A stretch of DNA of 62,506 nt from Pseudomonadota bacterium (lineage in GTDB: Bacteria; Pseudomonadota; Gammaproteobacteria; Steroidobacterales; Steroidobacteraceae): NCBI GenBank assembly GCA_947449495.1, contig CANFSB010000006.1:1-62506 (forward strand). The letters are read 5' to 3'. Positions within the stretch are counted from its first letter, which is position 1. Each line of letters begins with the position of its first letter. The translations under genes were made by a program, and so were the position numbers. A model generated the notes under the pieces. That model saw only the letters and a list, made by a program, of their open reading frames with translations. It did not search any database and was not told the DNA's origin. Below, in pieces: positions 56,279 through 62,506 of this stretch.

Positions 56279-56965
56279 TTACTCCAGGCCGATGCGCACT
56301 GCCGCAGCAGACGCAACCGGCGCCAAGGTGAGCCCCAATACAGCCAATGCGGCCAGTAAATACAACGGCGCCGCAGCCGGCTCGCTGCGGATAGCCAAGT
56401 CGGTAGCCTGCGCACCGAACACCAACGCAGGAATCGCCAGCGGCAAGACGATCAGGGAGACCAGCGTGCCGCCGCGACGCAGCCCCAGCGTAAGGCCCGC
56501 GCCGATGGAACCGAGCAAACTTAGGCTGATGCTGCCCAGCAGCAGGGCCAGCAATACGCCGGGTATTGCGGCTGTGGGTGCGCCCAGCGCCACAGCGGCC
56601 AGCGGCGCCGCAACCGCCAGGGGTAAGCCGGTCAACAGCCAGTGCGTGAGCGTCTTGGCCAGAACCAAGCCGGTGAACGACTGACCCGACAGGGCGAATT
56701 GCTCGAGCGTTCCATCGCGGCCGTCTTCGCGAAAGAGAAAGTCGATAGCCAACACCGATGACAACAGGGCAGCAATCCACAGGGCTGCCGGCGCCAACTG
56801 CCGCAACCGCTCGGGTGCCGGATCCAAGGCCAGTGGGAACAGCAACGTCACACAGATAAAAAATGCCACTGGCTGCAACCACTCTCCCGGCCGACGCACT
56901 GCCAAACGCAGATCGCGCTGCAGGATCAACAGTGCCGCGGCATACAGCGAGGGTCTTGAGGTCAT
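56279..56965 (-). CDS. ccmB: haem exporter protein CcmB
   Basis: Membrane part of the CcmAB ABC transporter. From ATG 56965 it is 228 residues with about six helices, and FREDGRDGTLEQFALSGQSF is a CcmB hallmark. The start overlaps the ccmA stop (ATGA). Confidence 0.96.
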   Translation of the reverse strand: MTSRPSLYAAALLILQRDLRLAVRRPGEWLQPVAFFICVTLLFPLALDPAPERLRQLAPAALWIAALLSSVLAIDFLFREDGRDGTLEQFALSGQSFTGLVLAKTLTHWLLTGLPLAVAAPLAAVALGAPTAAIPGVLLALLLGSISLSLLGSIGAGLTLGLRRGGTLVSLIVLPLAIPALVFGAQATDLAIRSEPAAAPLYLLAALAVLGLTLAPVASAAAVRIGLE

Positions 56966-57585
56966 GCTGTTTCCTGCGGCAGGTGCCAAAGCCGGTTGAT
57001 GCCCTGCTGCACCGGCAAGGCCTGATGCGTAGAGAGCAGCACACAGCCCCCAACGGCCAAGTGTTGCTCGATGACTGCCACCACCTGTGCCTGTCCTGTT
57101 GCATCCAGATTGGCTGCCGGTTCATCCAGCAGCCACAGCCGCGCATCCCACAGCGTCAGCCGTGCCAGCGCCACGCGTCGTTGCTGTCCGGCCGACAGCT
57201 GCCGTACCAGCCGGTCTGCCAGTGGGTCGATGCCAAGCTGTTGTAGGGTGGTACGCACGAGGCCCGCATTCCATGCGCGGCGCAGACCCAGCGCGTAGCG
57301 CAGATTTTCGGCCACTGTCAGGTCTGCTTTGAGCGCCAGGTCGTGACCCAAATAGGCCAAATCGTGTGCAAAGGCCTCAACATGGGTGGTGGTGGATTGG
57401 CCATTCCATTGCACAGAGCCGGACTCTGCAGGCAACAGGCCGGCCACCACGCGAAGCAGAGAGGTTTTGCCCACGCCGTTGGGCCATAGCATCTGTAATG
57501 CCTCGCCGGCCTGCAGCCGCAGTGACACGCCTTTGAGCACATGGCGATCGCCGCGCCACAGATGCAATCCACTGACTTCCAGCAC
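56962..57585 (-). CDS. ccmA: haem exporter ATP-binding protein CcmA
   Basis: ATPase of CcmABCD; it releases holo-CcmE. The 207 residues have the ABC signature LSAGQQRRVALARL and Walker B LWLLDEP. Walker A reads WPNGVGKT (about 34-41), so the usual first Gly is Trp, read consistently on the DNA. It is the first ccm gene in transcription order, 46 nt from the tRNA-Leu gene. Confidence 0.94.
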   Translation of the reverse strand: MLEVSGLHLWRGDRHVLKGVSLRLQAGEALQMLWPNGVGKTSLLRVVAGLLPAESGSVQWNGQSTTTHVEAFAHDLAYLGHDLALKADLTVAENLRYALGLRRAWNAGLVRTTLQQLGIDPLADRLVRQLSAGQQRRVALARLTLWDARLWLLDEPAANLDATGQAQVVAVIEQHLAVGGCVLLSTHQALPVQQGINRLWHLPQETA

Positions 57586-57631: not shown

Positions 57632-57937
57632 TGGTGCGGACGGCGGGAATCGAACCCGCAATCACTAAGGAGGCAGATTTTCGTACCACTTCGGCTTGCG
57701 CCGCCGCCGGTTTGCCCGGCGTTCGTGGTCTGGACTGTCCCTTCACCGTGGTTTCCGTGAGGAAAACGTTAGGTGCCGCCCGTCCAGTCTCTACACCTTC
57801 CCGCGCTGCGGGCTTGGCTCGGGATTGGCCGGTGCTTAACTCCGGCTTTCCCCGACTTTGAGCGGTTCTACTCCGGGGATTTCCCCCCGGGCACTCCAAT
57901 TGAAGTCTGCTGCGTCTACCAATTCCGCCACGTCCGC
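57632..57937 (-). tRNA. tRNA-Leu(UAA), interrupted by a group I intron
   Basis: The 5' exon (57937-57903, 35 nt) and 3' exon (57681-57632, 50 nt including CCA) join into an 85-nt cloverleaf. Acceptor GCGGACG pairs with CGTCCGC, then A and CCA. The joined anticodon stem GCAGA/TCTGC encloses CTTAAAA, giving anticodon TAA, and the variable arm is long, as in leucine tRNA. The intron interrupts the anticodon between U34 and A35, the position known from cyanobacterial and plastid tRNA-Leu(UAA). Confidence 0.95.
57682..57902 (-). ncRNA. group I self-splicing intron in tRNA-Leu(UAA)
   Basis: 221 nt with no room for a homing endonuclease. P1 forms between the 5' exon end ACUU and intron GAGU (minus strand 57896-57893), giving the conserved U-G wobble at the splice site. 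P7 is GACUG (57789-57785) with CAGUC (57737-57733). The core segments GAGCCAAGC, AAGGTGTAGAGACT and GGTGAAGG resemble subgroup IC3 introns of Azoarcus tRNA-Ile and cyanobacterial tRNA-Leu. The last intron base is G. All from reading; no folding was run. Confidence 0.92.
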
Positions 57938-57985: not shown

Positions 57986-60900
57986 TTACGGTCCCGCGGC
58001 ACACGGCGCGGTCGAGGTCATTTCGCCGCTGGACCCGCAACTGGCCAGCGCGGAATGACTCATCAAGGCCTCAACGCTGTTCTGTCCTTGGGCCTGGGGC
58101 AGACCATCAACCCCCAGCAAAGCCGAACCGCCTGTGGCGTCGTAGCTGCCGGCCAACATGCCGCTGTACGCGCTGCTCAGGCCAGCCAACCAGGCTTGCA
58201 CTGCGCCGCCACCTAGTTGACTGCTTTCGGCGGCCAACACTGTGCCCCACGCGACGCCGTTGTAGAGCATCGCCATGTTGGTGGTGTCGATCATGCCGCG
58301 GAAGCGGGTTTCGTAGGGACTGTAGGGATAGAAGTTGACCACTGCGGTCAGTGGCGACAGCTTGAACGCCCGACCCGCGGCGCCCGAGACCGTCAGCACT
58401 GTGCCGACGTTATTGTTGTTGAGCGTGCGCCCGCTGTAGCCGTTTTGTGTCCAAGTCAGGGTGTTACCTGCGGTATCGATATCCACCCGTCCCAGGCCAG
58501 CCTTATCCTGCCCGGCCTGATTAAACACGGTCAGCACCAACGGTCCCCCGGTAACGAAACTGGCATCGGTTGAATTGACCGTGGCTGTGAGGGCGTTCTT
58601 GTCGGCCAATGCCACCGCACTGCCCGTGGCAGTCACTGCACCACCAAAATCGTTACCTGTATTGTTTAGCGTGATGATCTGGCCGGTCGCGGTGACGGTG
58701 GTGGTGCCCGCCACAGTCATGGCAGCTGTCTGTGTTATCGGTCCGACTGCTGTGATGTTGGTGCTGCCAGACAGCGCTGTCGGGCCCAGCACCAGTGTGC
58801 TGGCATCGCGCAGATTCAGGGTTGAACCGGTTACACCGACCGCGCCCACAAAATCATTACCGACGTTGGCCAGTGTGACGGCACCAGTGCCTGCCGCCAC
58901 GGTGCTGGCACCAGTGATGCGCAAACTGCCTGCCGTCTGATTGACCACGGCATTGGTGGTCGTCAGACCCAGCGTACCGGTGGTGCTCATATCGTGTGCA
59001 AGGGTGATTCCGCTGGCACCCGTCAACGCAATATTGGCGCCCGTCATTGCGCCCGTAGTGACCAGTGCTGCGCCGCTGGCCAGGGTGAGATCTGCTGTGC
59101 CAGTGTTCAACGATTGGACCGGTAACGACAGCAGACCGCCCGCACGCAACGTGACGGCTTTGTTTGTGCCGTTGGTAATCGCGCTGACAGACAACGCGTT
59201 GGCATCGCGCAAGGCAATAGCAGCGCCCGTGGCGCCAACTGCACCTTGGAAATCGTTTGCAGCGTTATCGAGGGTGATGTCGCCGGTTGCTATAAGCGTT
59301 GCGGGACCCGCGACTGACAGCGCACCACTCTGCGTCAGCGGCCCACCTGCTGTCACCGTGGTGGCACCAGTCAGCGTCGATGCGCCCAGCACCAGCGCCG
59401 TAGCATCACGCACTGTCGCATCCTTGGCCGACAGACTCACAGCACCTGTGAAATCGTTACCGGCACTGTCTAGCGTTACGGTGTTGCCTGCGGCGTTGAT
59501 CGTCGTGGTACCGGCCACGGTCAGATCGCCGCTCTGGGTCAATGCGCCGCCGGTGGTGATGTTGGCGTTGCCGCTGAGTACGCTGGCGCCCAGCACCATC
59601 GCCGTGGCATCGCGCAAGCTTGCGTCCTTTGCAGTAATAGCCAACGCACCGACAAACTTATTGTTGGCGTTATCAAGAGTGACAGACTGACCGGTCGCGT
59701 TGACTGTAGTGGTTCCGTTGACCGTCAATGCGCCCGTCTGCGTCAGTGCACTGCCGCTGGTCAATGTGGCTGCGCCGCTGATCGTGGATGCACCAAGCGT
59801 TAGCGCCGTGGCATCGCGCAGGCTGACATCCTTGCCATTGACCGACAACGCGCCAACGAACTCGTTGGCGGCATTGTCGAGTGTGATGTTCTGCCCAGCC
59901 GCGTTGACGGCTGTGGTGCCGGCGACGCTGAGAGCGCCGCTCTGCGTGACTGCACCGCCGGTCAACACGCCCAGTGTGCCGGTGACTGAACTTGCAGAGA
60001 GCGTCAGTCCGTTGGCATCGCGCAAGGACACGTCCTTGCCAGCAACGCCCAGCGCGCCATTGAAGTCGTTGCCTGCGTTATCGAGGGTGACGTTCTGACC
60101 TGCCGAGCTGATCGCCGTTGTTCCGGCGACCGTCAGGGCACCGGCCTGAGTCAACGCACCGCCTGAGGCCAAGGTCAGATTGCCGCCGATCGCCGACGCA
60201 CCGAGTGCCAAGGCGTTGGCGTCGCGCAGGCTGACATCTTTGCCAACAATACTGATCGCACCCGCAAAATCATTGCCAGCACTGTTCAGTGCCACATCCT
60301 GCCCCGCGGCACTCACTGCAGTGGTGCCGGCAATCATCAGGGCGCCGGTTTGAGTGATGGCACCCCCTGCGGCAAGCGTGGTGTTACCTGACAGTGTGCT
60401 TGAGCCCAGCGTCAGGGCGTTGGCATCGCGCAAATTAAGATCGCGCGCAGTAACCGCAACGGCGCCGCCAAAATCATTGCCTGCAGAGGCCAAGGTGACC
60501 GTACCGGTCCCGGCACTGATCGTTGTGGCGCCCACTGCAGTGATCGAACCGCCGGACTGACTGATCGCAGCATCGGCACTGGTTAGTCGCAAGGTTGAGC
60601 CGGCGCTGACGCTATTGCCCAGGCTAATGCCTGTGCTGCCACTCAGTGATACAGCGTTGCCCGACAACGCAGTGGTGGTCAGCAAAATGGTGCCGCTGGA
60701 TAGGGTCAGATCCGCTGATCCGGTGTTGATTGCGGTCGCCGGCAGACTCAATAAGCCGCCGGCGCGCAAGGTGACAGACTTGTTTGGCGCAGAAGCCAGT
60801 GAGCTCACAGTAAGCGCGGTGGCATCGCGCAGCGACACAGCGCCACCCACGGCAGAGACGCTGCCCTGGAAGTCATTGCCGGCATTGTCGAGCAGCAGGT

Positions 60901-62506
60901 CTGCGGCACCCGAGTTCAACATACTGGTGCCGGCAACAGTGAGCTGGGCGGTCTGCGTCAGCGGGCCAGCGGACTGCAGTGCTAGATTGCCTGTTACAGC
61001 CGAGAGGCCCAGGGTCAATGCATTGCTGTCACGCAGCGCTAGATCTTTGGCGCTGACGCTGACTGCAGCACCGAAATCGTTCTCTGCATTGGCAAGGGTG
61101 ACGTCTTGGCCCGCAGCCGTGACAACAGTGGTGCCTGTTGTGGTTATGGCTGCGCTCTGCGTCACAGAGCCACCAGCCACCAATGTCAGGTTGCCGGCAG
61201 CGCTCGTAGCACCCAGTGCAAGCCCATTGGCATCACGCAGGCTGATGTTGTTGCCTGCGGCAGCCACTGTGCCAATAAAGTCGTTACCCACATTGGCCAG
61301 CGTGATGTCCTGACCCGTGGCAGTGACGCTGGTATTGCCGGCTACCGTCATTGCAGCGCTTTGCGTCACCGCTCCGCCGGCCACCACAGTGGCATTGCTT
61401 GTAGCGTTGGTAGCGCCCAGCGTCAACGCATTGGCATCACGCAAGCGCAGGACGTTGGCATTGGCACTAACCGCACCACCGAAGTCGTTACCGACGGTGT
61501 CGAGTGTTACGTCGTATCCAGTTGCAGAGATCCCAGTGGTGCCAGTAACGGCGAGAGCACCGGTCTGTGTTAGCGCACCGGCAACGGTCAATGCGGCATT
61601 GCCGGTGATCGTTGAGGCACCCAGACTCAGCGCACCGGCATCACGCAGGGTCACGTCTCTAGCCATGAGATTGACCACGCCACCGAACTCATTGCCCGCC
61701 AGCGCAAGCGTCACATCCTGACCCAGCGCGGTAATGCCTGTGGTGCCTGCAACTGACAGCGCACCGGTTTGCGTTACCGCGCCGCCTGCTACCAAAGCGG
61801 CATTGCCGGTGATTGTGGAGCTGCCCAGCGACAGGGCCGTGGCGTCGCGCAAACTCACATCTTTGGCAGCAACACTGACCGCTGCACCAAAATCATTGGC
61901 CGCATTGGATAGCGTTACATCTTGATTAGTCGCTGTGATATCCGTGGCACCGGCCACCGTCACAGCGCCGGTTTGCGTCACTGCACCAGCGGTCGCGATC
62001 GTGGCATCGCCACTGATAGTTGAAGCGCCCAGGACCAGCGCGTTCACATCGCGCAGCCCGACGGACTTGCCAGCAACGCTGACAGAACCGCCAAAGTCGT
62101 TGCCCGCATTGGTGAGCGTGACATCCTGGCCGACAGCGTTGAGGGTGGTGTTGCCCGTGACAACCAGCGCACCGGATTGAGTCAGGGCCCCACCACTCGT
62201 CAACGTGGCTGTACCGATGACGGAGTTGGTACCCAATAGCAAAGCGGTGGCATCGCGCAGGGTCACATCCCGCCCAGTGATGCTGACCGCACCACCAAAG
62301 TCGTTGGCGCCATTGCCCAGCAGCACGTCCTGACCTGTTGCTGTAACACCCGTCGTGCCTGCCACGGTCAGCGCGCCGGTTTGAGTCAGTGCGCCGCCCA
62401 CTACCAGGACGGCGTTGCCTGTCACTGTGGACGCCCCCAGTGCCAGTGCGCCGACATCGCGCAGGCTTACATCCTTGCCAGCCACACTGACTGCACCGCC
62501 AAAATC
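57986..62506 (-). CDS. giant repetitive filamentous-haemagglutinin-like exoprotein (C-terminal part)
   Basis: The frame is open to the window edge, so the N terminus and any signal or TPS domain are missing. About 1506 residues are visible, mostly beta-strand repeats rich in Gly, Ala, Thr, Val, Asn and Asp. Seventeen repeats, each with a (L/V)RD(A/V)xAL-type start, run to about 58610. A non-repetitive C-terminal region of about 205 residues follows. The last residues contain two cysteines, SCGSSGEMTSTAPCAAGP. This fits a surface beta-helix adhesin or exoprotein of the two-partner secretion class; the substrate or binding partner is unknown. Confidence 0.82.
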   Translation of the reverse strand, partial: DFGGAVSVAGKDVSLRDVGALALGASTVTGNAVLVVGGALTQTGALTVAGTTGVTATGQDVLLGNGANDFGGAVSITGRDVTLRDATALLLGTNSVIGTATLTSGGALTQSGALVVTGNTTLNAVGQDVTLTNAGNDFGGSVSVAGKSVGLRDVNALVLGASTISGDATIATAGAVTQTGAVTVAGATDITATNQDVTLSNAANDFGAAVSVAAKDVSLRDATALSLGSSTITGNAALVAGGAVTQTGALSVAGTTGITALGQDVTLALAGNEFGGVVNLMARDVTLRDAGALSLGASTITGNAALTVAGALTQTGALAVTGTTGISATGYDVTLDTVGNDFGGAVSANANVLRLRDANALTLGATNATSNATVVAGGAVTQSAAMTVAGNTSVTATGQDITLANVGNDFIGTVAAAGNNISLRDANGLALGATSAAGNLTLVAGGSVTQSAAITTTGTTVVTAAGQDVTLANAENDFGAAVSVSAKDLALRDSNALTLGLSAVTGNLALQSAGPLTQTAQLTVAGTSMLNSGAADLLLDNAGNDFQGSVSAVGGAVSLRDATALTVSSLASAPNKSVTLRAGGLLSLPATAINTGSADLTLSSGTILLTTTALSGNAVSLSGSTGISLGNSVSAGSTLRLTSADAAISQSGGSITAVGATTISAGTGTVTLASAGNDFGGAVAVTARDLNLRDANALTLGSSTLSGNTTLAAGGAITQTGALMIAGTTAVSAAGQDVALNSAGNDFAGAISIVGKDVSLRDANALALGASAIGGNLTLASGGALTQAGALTVAGTTAISSAGQNVTLDNAGNDFNGALGVAGKDVSLRDANGLTLSASSVTGTLGVLTGGAVTQSGALSVAGTTAVNAAGQNITLDNAANEFVGALSVNGKDVSLRDATALTLGASTISGAATLTSGSALTQTGALTVNGTTTVNATGQSVTLDNANNKFVGALAITAKDASLRDATAMVLGASVLSGNANITTGGALTQSGDLTVAGTTTINAAGNTVTLDSAGNDFTGAVSLSAKDATVRDATALVLGASTLTGATTVTAGGPLTQSGALSVAGPATLIATGDITLDNAANDFQGAVGATGAAIALRDANALSVSAITNGTNKAVTLRAGGLLSLPVQSLNTGTADLTLASGAALVTTGAMTGANIALTGASGITLAHDMSTTGTLGLTTTNAVVNQTAGSLRITGASTVAAGTGAVTLANVGNDFVGAVGVTGSTLNLRDASTLVLGPTALSGSTNITAVGPITQTAAMTVAGTTTVTATGQIITLNNTGNDFGGAVTATGSAVALADKNALTATVNSTDASFVTGGPLVLTVFNQAGQDKAGLGRVDIDTAGNTLTWTQNGYSGRTLNNNNVGTVLTVSGAAGRAFKLSPLTAVVNFYPYSPYETRFRGMIDTTNMAMLYNGVAWGTVLAAESSQLGGGAVQAWLAGLSSAYSGMLAGSYDATGGSALLGVDGLPQAQGQNSVEALMSHSALASCGSSGEMTSTAPCAAGP
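58610..62464 (-). repeat. 68-residue (204-bp) repeat array
   Basis: Units of 68 residues (204 bp) carry the frame of a (L/V)RD motif, then GNxxLxxGGAxTQTGALTVAGTT, TATGQDVTL and NDFGGAVSV. Two longer 133-residue units, at 60832-60434 and 59212-58814, share an inserted segment VTLRAGGLLSLP that the short units lack. Amino acid copies are far more alike than neutral drift would leave, while DNA copies differ at many third positions. Confidence 0.92.

Follow-up and report, generated by a model that had tools for sequence, protein, structure and literature searches.

Why tRNA introns lie in anticodon loops, and what leads bacteria to retain them, is an old question, and the usual answer is that they are neutral passengers. 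The intron in tRNA-Leu(UAA) of cyanobacteria and plastids splits its gene at the same point as the intron described in this work, with U as the last base of the 5' exon and G as the last base of the intron. Group I introns in this tRNA have been reported from cyanobacteria and plastids, with a length of 250 nt in Anabaena PCC7120 (available text of PMC2729099 and PMC4476775). Ours occupies the same tRNA in a gammaproteobacterial phototroph. Proteobacterial tRNA genes with group I introns include tRNA-Ile2 of Acidovorax and Burkholderia (PMC8450103) and tRNA-Arg(CCU) of Alphaproteobacteria including Bartonella, where splicing was shown (PMC7717549). These introns likewise lie in tRNA genes, but the tRNAs are others, and the accessible portions of both papers draw no link to integrative elements.

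Mobile elements that integrate into tRNA genes are the other relevant precedent. In tRNA-dependent lysogeny (Guerrero-Bustamante and Hatfull 2024; PMC10865867), as in the elements described below, a tyrosine integrase uses a short core within a tRNA gene, the host tRNA is not restored, and a tRNA of the same kind is carried. Set against the available text of that paper, our elements differ in being island-like and alphaproteobacterial, with a replacement tRNA that is split by an intron or has U32. Phage-related sequences of Sinorhizobium meliloti provide a replacement tRNA-Leu(UAG) (accessible text of PMC11476347); there too, a native leucine tRNA is inactivated by integration and a foreign one replaces it, but the anticodon is UAG and the term "group I intron" is absent from the main text. 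Islander islands share the anticodon-loop attachment subsite, the tyrosine integrase, and the fragment marking the end of the element; in the part of that report that was available (PMC4383910), the target gene is restored through the attachment site, unlike in our elements.

The window, by which we mean the whole 62,506-nt stretch of DNA analyzed here, comes from a Steroidobacteraceae bacterium and carries a tRNA-Leu(UAA) gene split in its anticodon loop (Table 1). The gene was missed by default ARAGORN and by Rfam at its gathering threshold. When introns were allowed, ARAGORN found a 221-nt intron with both ends slid by one base and called the tRNA as Phe(GAA); the end rules of group I introns (U before the intron, G as its last base) bring the identity back to Leu(UAA), and the ligated exons are recognized by ARAGORN as an 85-nt tRNA-Leu(UAA). 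P1, which is partly exonic, was read by eye and pairs exon ACUU with intron GAGU, with U34 at the end of the 5' exon opposite the G of intron GGAGU; the terminal base of the intron is G. The Rfam model RF00028 matches over its full length at 41.5 bits (E = 2.5e-9), under the gathering score of 50. An earlier note on this DNA had regarded a score below threshold as evidence against an intron, and literally the score is below it; that cut-off is a curator's limit and no defining biological trait of group I introns, and the comparative structure evidence given next overrides it. The note's central proposal, a group I intron in tRNA-Leu(UAA) breaking the gene after U34, holds up on anatomy, RF00028 match, covariation, and the tRNA formed by the ligated exons. 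Judged from sequence, the split gene is real and its group I intron complete, and the intron RNA probably removes itself from the tRNA-Leu precursor.

Table 1. Coordinates of the split tRNA-Leu(UAA) gene, its intron helices, its neighbors, and the related plasmid module (window positions unless a locus is named)
Feature	Position	Strand	Description or evidence
tRNA-Leu(UAA) gene, intron-split	57632-57937	-	Long variable arm, CCA encoded
5' exon, 35 nt, last bases C32 U33 U34	57903-57937	-	Ligated exons via ARAGORN
Group I intron, 221 nt, starts CAATTGGAGT, final bases GGTACG	57682-57902	-	RF00028 and comparative structure
3' exon, first bases A35 A36 A37 A38, CCA encoded	57632-57681	-	ARAGORN, ligated exons
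P2 hairpin, GAAA loop	57873-57890	-	7 pairs, 96.4% of cells paired, both-side changes in 4 pairs
P3, enclosing P4-P6	57860-57865 with 57776-57781	-	100% of cells paired
P7, with P8 between its strands	57785-57789 with 57733-57737	-	100% paired
ccmA, immediately 3' of tRNA gene, marker of orthologous tRNA-Leu locus	56962-57585	-	NCBIfam ccmA above cut-off
1499-aa repeat protein (DUF5649 repeats), neighbor 5' of tRNA gene	57986-62485	-	Pfam PF18886, 17 stretches
pCTX-M3 module with unannotated intron-bearing tRNA-Leu(UAA)	L197 5768-7770		

We aligned 40 introns, the window's included, and drew helices P2–P9 by hand, with P7 as a pseudoknot. Across all drawn helices 94.9% of cells are paired, a fraction somewhat favored by drawing the helices on the window sequence. 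Double changes numbered 57, compared with 17.7 ± 3.2 in shuffled alignments and 4–15 with slid partners. P3, P4, P6, P7, and P8 are paired in 100% of the 40 sequences, and the last pair of P7, which by analogy would be the guanosine-binding helix, is G-C in 30 sequences and A-U in the other 10. Pairing is weak in P5, where two of the five drawn pairs fail in 33/37 and 20/37 rows with letters, and in P6a, where one pair fails in 18/35 rows. The alignment thus contains the conserved group I core of P3, P4, P6, P7, and P8 with the P3/P7 pseudoknot, and a poorly paired distal P5. Minimum free energy folding of the precursor is mildly better than that of shuffles (z = −2.2). The intron may belong to subgroup IC3 and may resemble the Azoarcus intron.

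The host had been described as an anoxygenic phototroph, and this is borne out by a photosynthesis gene cluster in the window, with BchL, BchM, PuhA, AcsF, PufL, BchC, and BchZ above NCBIfam cut-offs. Its genome (2.58 Mb in 159 contigs, rated 100% complete) has 41 uninterrupted tRNAs. Their leucine anticodons are only UAG, CAA, GAG, and CAG, so the split gene is the sole tRNA-Leu(UAA) found; a second, uninterrupted copy carrying the function, which the earlier note had named as counting against its proposal, is not found among these tRNAs in the 159-contig assembly. Some other expected tRNAs, such as Ile(GAU) and Ala(UGC), are likewise absent from the tRNAs found. The earlier note had suggested that splicing may limit charging for the UUA and UUG codons; as far as the assembly shows, UUA decoding depends on the split gene, and UUG has a second reader in the intact tRNA-Leu(CAA). 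On the 5' side, the repeat protein separates the tRNA-Leu gene from the contig end, and on contig C52 of G000 the Gly-Cys tRNAs are followed by a 424-aa ORF; together these suggest that DNA has inserted between the genes for tRNA-Cys and tRNA-Leu. The same genome holds a second group I intron on contig C4 (L002 1160–1811). It interrupts the tmRNA gene in the T-loop, apparently at the main known subsite, and scores 28.7 bits with RF00028, below gathering; a LAGLIDADG ORF (1892–2353) lies just 3' of the tmRNA gene, outside the intron.

To place the split gene among relatives, we searched 40 genomes: its own, eight from the genus, 16 from the family, and 15 from the order. Full-length intron-bearing genes occur in its own genome, six of eight genus-mates, and one of 16 other family members, and the tRNA-Leu(UAA) of the genus-mates G004 and G008 is uninterrupted. 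Other introns among the 40 genomes lie in tRNA-Leu(UAA) of G011 and G035, tRNA-Leu(CAA) of G013, and a CAU tRNA of G020. The gene of G002 is 99% identical to that of the window, and its intron is identical to that of locus L210 (Proteobacteria bacterium isolate LacPavin). Because ccmA directly follows tRNA-Leu in genomes with and without the intron, the locus is orthologous among these relatives. In a CcmA+CcmB tree G004 and G008, both intronless, form a pair that joins the intron-bearing G007 (99/97); the intron is also present in G017, which is not a member of the genus. The simplest account suggested by this host tree, whose basis of two genes is thin, is a single precise intron loss. Between the two origins that had been offered, the shared tRNA-Leu-ccmA locus and the CcmA+CcmB tree favor vertical descent inside the genus. 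Acquisition from another phototroph is not what the intron tree points to: the window genus forms one clade (100/94) within a mostly alphaproteobacterial set, in an unrooted tree of short introns that includes no cyanobacterial sequence and with which a phototrophic donor or an old cyanobacterial link would still be compatible. Its deep joins were left unused because of long branches and unsettled bootstraps.

A scan of 84,980 species genomes with a 27-base intron-core pattern, which is silent on cyanobacteria because it was built from the window clade, returned 64 loci: about 47 alphaproteobacterial by title, six from Acinetobacter or Kluyvera, and the remainder mostly from uncultured proteobacteria. 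The view that proteobacterial cases are those in tRNA-Ile and tRNA-Arg is therefore incomplete. At 60 of the 64 loci (all but L200, L207, L215, and L260), the pattern coincides with a tRNA that ARAGORN calls with an intron; the ends of some calls are slid or fused with an upstream half gene. A tRNA-Leu(CAA) with a group I intron, and with C instead of U before it, was noted in L211, L242, L254 (Rhodopila MAGs), and L013.

Relatives of the split gene also occur on plasmids. Queried with the window gene, 1,301 of 72,556 plasmid records match, 1,270 of them with at least 80% coverage, and identity over the whole length is 80.8% in the best rows. The pCTX-M3 copy with its upstream DNA matches 1,291 records, 1,282 at no less than 99% and 1,225 with at least 80% coverage, and no annotated feature lies under the gene among the 20 and 60 matches listed. 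We inspected the neighborhood in eight records (pCTX-M3, one Salmonella plasmid, five from Acinetobacter, and one from Kluyvera), the others standing as sequence matches. In all eight, the tRNA gene adjoins aac(3)-IId and a gene for a TmrB-like ATPase. Six of the eight tRNA genes are identical and one differs slightly; the eighth, in the Salmonella plasmid, is cut at its 5' end, at the first 38 nt, beside an IS26 copy. The match to the ATPase and aac(3) genes of L237 comes in two pieces. The plasmid DNA next to the tRNA gene is the described aacC2-tmrB module (PMC7096625, PMC11232968), and the words tRNA and intron are absent from the main text of both papers. In E. coli, 635 of 5,426 complete genomes have a match (624 with coverage of 80% or more), at 81 chromosomal places and 589 on plasmids. 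Among chromosomal matches to the plasmid module, the best score belongs to Pseudochelatococcus contaminans (90.6% identity over 468 nt including upstream DNA), although in the intron tree the plasmid copy groups with Phyllobacterium; the tRNA part of the module thus looks alphaproteobacterial. No tmrB or aac(3) was found at the 64 genome loci, except in the six Acinetobacter and Kluyvera records, which duplicate the plasmid module exactly or nearly so. A search of six alphaproteobacterial genomes for a chromosomal source of aac(3)-IId gave no match and, having no positive control, shows little.

Upstream of the intron gene, many loci have a 5' half gene from another tRNA-Leu, broken off at the anticodon loop. 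We scored 71 rows, some genomes appearing twice (L218 and L259 were dropped because the exon end was not found, and L240 was too short). A half gene scoring 14–31 was present within up to 600 nt upstream in 16 rows, one of them (L244) not proteobacterial, and mostly about 160–210 bp away. Control windows reached at most 12, except for 26 in L200, where another tRNA-Leu gene lies; L256 and five plasmid-type rows also scored 12 upstream. Twelve genomes, chosen mostly for a visible half gene, were checked for an element, and in five of them the matching native 3' half lies downstream of the intron gene on the same strand, at distances of 17, 34, 40, 69, and 80 kb. These elements span 17–81 kb, with the intron gene near one end and an integrase gene or remnant at the other. 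In all five, the core common to both ends is CTTAAAA, the 7-nt anticodon loop; the host tRNA is not rebuilt, and the flanks, when joined, give an ordinary tRNA-Leu(UAA) in ARAGORN.

All five also hold a tyrosine recombinase gene, or what remains of one, some 200 bp in from the far end. Pfam was run on the gene of L268, which has PF00589 and PF13356, and on the remnant of L264; homologs were found by tblastn in L266, L267 (one stop), and L269, and L264 is truncated, so that three are without a stop in the aligned stretch, one has a stop, and one is truncated. Some elements may be conjugative, as one encodes a T2SSE-family ATPase. Next to the split native gene stands a complete, intron-bearing tRNA-Leu(UAA), whose exon halves match each other and not the split gene, indicating that the element brings a complete tRNA. 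Both native halves, the core, the integrase genes, and the complete replacements can be read directly; from them we infer that the element integrases catalyze the joining. The spacer scan added a further Leu(UAA) element, L315, whose replacement gene is also intron-bearing; it is the only one found without the intron as bait. At the window locus no half tRNA gene was detected (the best upstream score, 11, falls at a non-tRNA place), the DNA after the Gly-Cys genes of C52 shows no half gene or spacer by eye, and across the genus neither an element nor a half gene nor a spacer was seen at the tRNA-Leu locus.

Related elements use a different leucine tRNA gene. An alignment of three element integrases, searched against 297 Hyphomicrobiales genomes, gave 24 matches at 1e-60, with a wide gap between five close ones (E < 1e-220) and the 19 others. 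Besides the known G046, the close matches (G177, G345, G351, and G395) lie at the 3' half of tRNA-Leu(CAA), with core CTCAAAA. Their far ends have the native 5' half and a like spacer, followed in three of four by a complete intronless tRNA-Leu(CAA); G351 has the split gene and spacer with no replacement tRNA after it. Five more Leu(CAA) elements (L313, L314, L318, L326, and L328) came from spacer and junction patterns that are silent on the replacement gene. The junction pattern occurred in seven of 385 alphaproteobacterial genomes, its reversed control 12 times, and the hits real on inspection were G046 and two Leu(CAA) elements; the spacer pattern occurred in seven of 397 genomes and its reversed control five times. 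Scans of viral sequences yielded one unrelated repeat array for the spacer and nothing for the Leu(UAA) junction.

The replacement loop is TTCAAAA (U32) in 8/8 Leu(CAA) elements, in a tally that permitted C or U, and the intact native halves read CTCAAAA (C32) in 8/8, four of which were found by a pattern requiring C32. Fisher's test gives 1.6e-4, uncorrected for relatedness, and because the replacements are related to one another these are not eight independent events. Among 65 rows of intron-bearing Leu(UAA) genes, duplicates and plasmid copies included, none contains CTTAAAA. Both kinds of element thus carry a spare tRNA with a broken core, the break being an intron in one and a single base in the other.

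The same intron core is found in phage tRNAs of many isotypes in IMG/VR (L077–L196), with 38 of 123 matches called in a tRNA. L104 and L133 each pair an intron-bearing tRNA-Arg(UCU) with an intron-bearing tRNA-Leu(UAA) roughly 600 nt away, and L195 looks alike. A general phage rule that a tRNA intron comes with an integrase had to be rejected: of 36 viral records with a tRNA intron (35 from ARAGORN plus L159), 29 were searched (28 plus L159; six look-alikes and L183 were left out), and PF00589 occurs in only two of them, against 0/20 records without a tRNA-called intron. Most phage tRNA introns therefore need another explanation. In one viral contig (L090 6025–7748), a tyrosine recombinase and a tRNA-Lys(CUU) with an intron lie about 300 bp apart, and L171, outside the 29 searched, resembles L090 and has an integrase-like stretch.

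Gordonia phage Daredevil offers an independent case. Beside its integrase, a 238-nt intron with the same core interrupts a tRNA-Lys(UUU) gene after U34. The gene is unannotated and missed by default ARAGORN, and its joined exons score as tRNA-Lys(UUU). It lies about 150 bp from a GGACTTTTAATCCGC site (CTTTTAA) that we take as the putative attP. In the available text of PMC10865867, Daredevil is said not to encode its own tRNA (a figure legend has it without tRNA-Ile2(CAT)), and its plaques are clear, which is unexpected from a working spare tRNA. The T-loop of the Daredevil tRNA is that of the Fionnbharth tRNA, which complements the host according to the section headings of the same paper (PMC10865867). 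The Fionnbharth tRNA keeps the CTTTTAA loop and differs in the closing pair from the CTTTTAAT site upstream of the integrase, possibly a third way of breaking the core, seen once.

We think it probable that one joint explanation covers these observations, in which a group I intron is inherited in the window genus, the gene family to which it belongs serves as the replacement tRNA of elements, and the intron breaks the integrase core. Following established group I chemistry, the precursor would fold into P1–P9, a guanosine-driven cut would fall after U34, U34 would be joined to A35, and the intron would be released. In the elements, the tyrosine recombinase would join element to host at the 7-bp CTTAAAA in the anticodon loop of tRNA-Leu(UAA). 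Since the host gene is split and not rebuilt, the element must bring its own complete tRNA-Leu(UAA), and the replacement gene lacks the core because the intron lies inside those 7 bp. The intron-bearing family would then be the replacement tRNA carried by alphaproteobacterial integrative elements, and the intron would shield the replacement, and any intron-bearing host gene, from the integrase. The window gene would represent the ancestral tRNA-Leu-ccmA locus, inherited in the genus with one clean loss. Whether some tRNA group I introns are kept as attachment-site masks, as the C32U change in sister elements may be, with a window-type host immune to loop-targeting elements, we regard as an evenly balanced question; for the window genus the protective effect is purely conjectural. 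The open-access literature turned up by our search, as far as its text was available, contains no mention of introns masking attachment sites.

An ordinary neutral, self-splicing intron is a less probable alternative: the anticodon loop is a good insertion site, and the association with elements would be hitch-hiking. Integrase and intron may each have a separate reason to prefer this conserved loop, the window genus retains the intron with no element seen at the locus, and the phage tRNAs with the same core pattern mostly lack an integrase. Hitch-hiking does not predict, however, that the intronless sister elements alter the same core in every case, and a complete replacement tRNA is needed anyway once the native gene is split. 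We find it unlikely, more so than neutrality, that the intron-bearing gene arrived recently in the window genus from an alphaproteobacterial element, by gene conversion or with loss of the rest, even though the full-length identity to the element-type plasmid gene and the position of the genus as one clade within a mostly alphaproteobacterial set would suit such an arrival. Relatives without the intron and outgroups share the tRNA-Leu-ccmA order, with neither spacer nor half gene in sight, CcmA+CcmB puts two intronless genomes inside intron-bearing lineages, and direction is unreadable from an unrooted tree of short introns. It is very improbable that the intron is degenerate and does not splice, with UUA read by a tRNA absent from the assembly. 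The Rfam score under gathering, the 159 contigs, and the expected tRNAs that were not found lean that way; against it, P3, P4, P6, P7, and P8 are intact and conserved, the exons make a complete tRNA, and the same locus in genus-mates is a Leu(UAA) gene.

With the joint explanation, the elements offer a testable benefit of an intron, in that a 7-bp integrase target is broken, which sister elements manage with a single base. The split tRNA gene is also a tag for the origin of part of the aac(3)-IId module DNA. If the explanation is true, standard tRNA finders are a source of error, as the Daredevil exception holds an unannotated split tRNA; the study of group I introns and that of tRNA-dependent lysogeny would be joined as fields, and bacterial tRNA introns would have a function that selection can act on where mobile elements and their hosts are in conflict.
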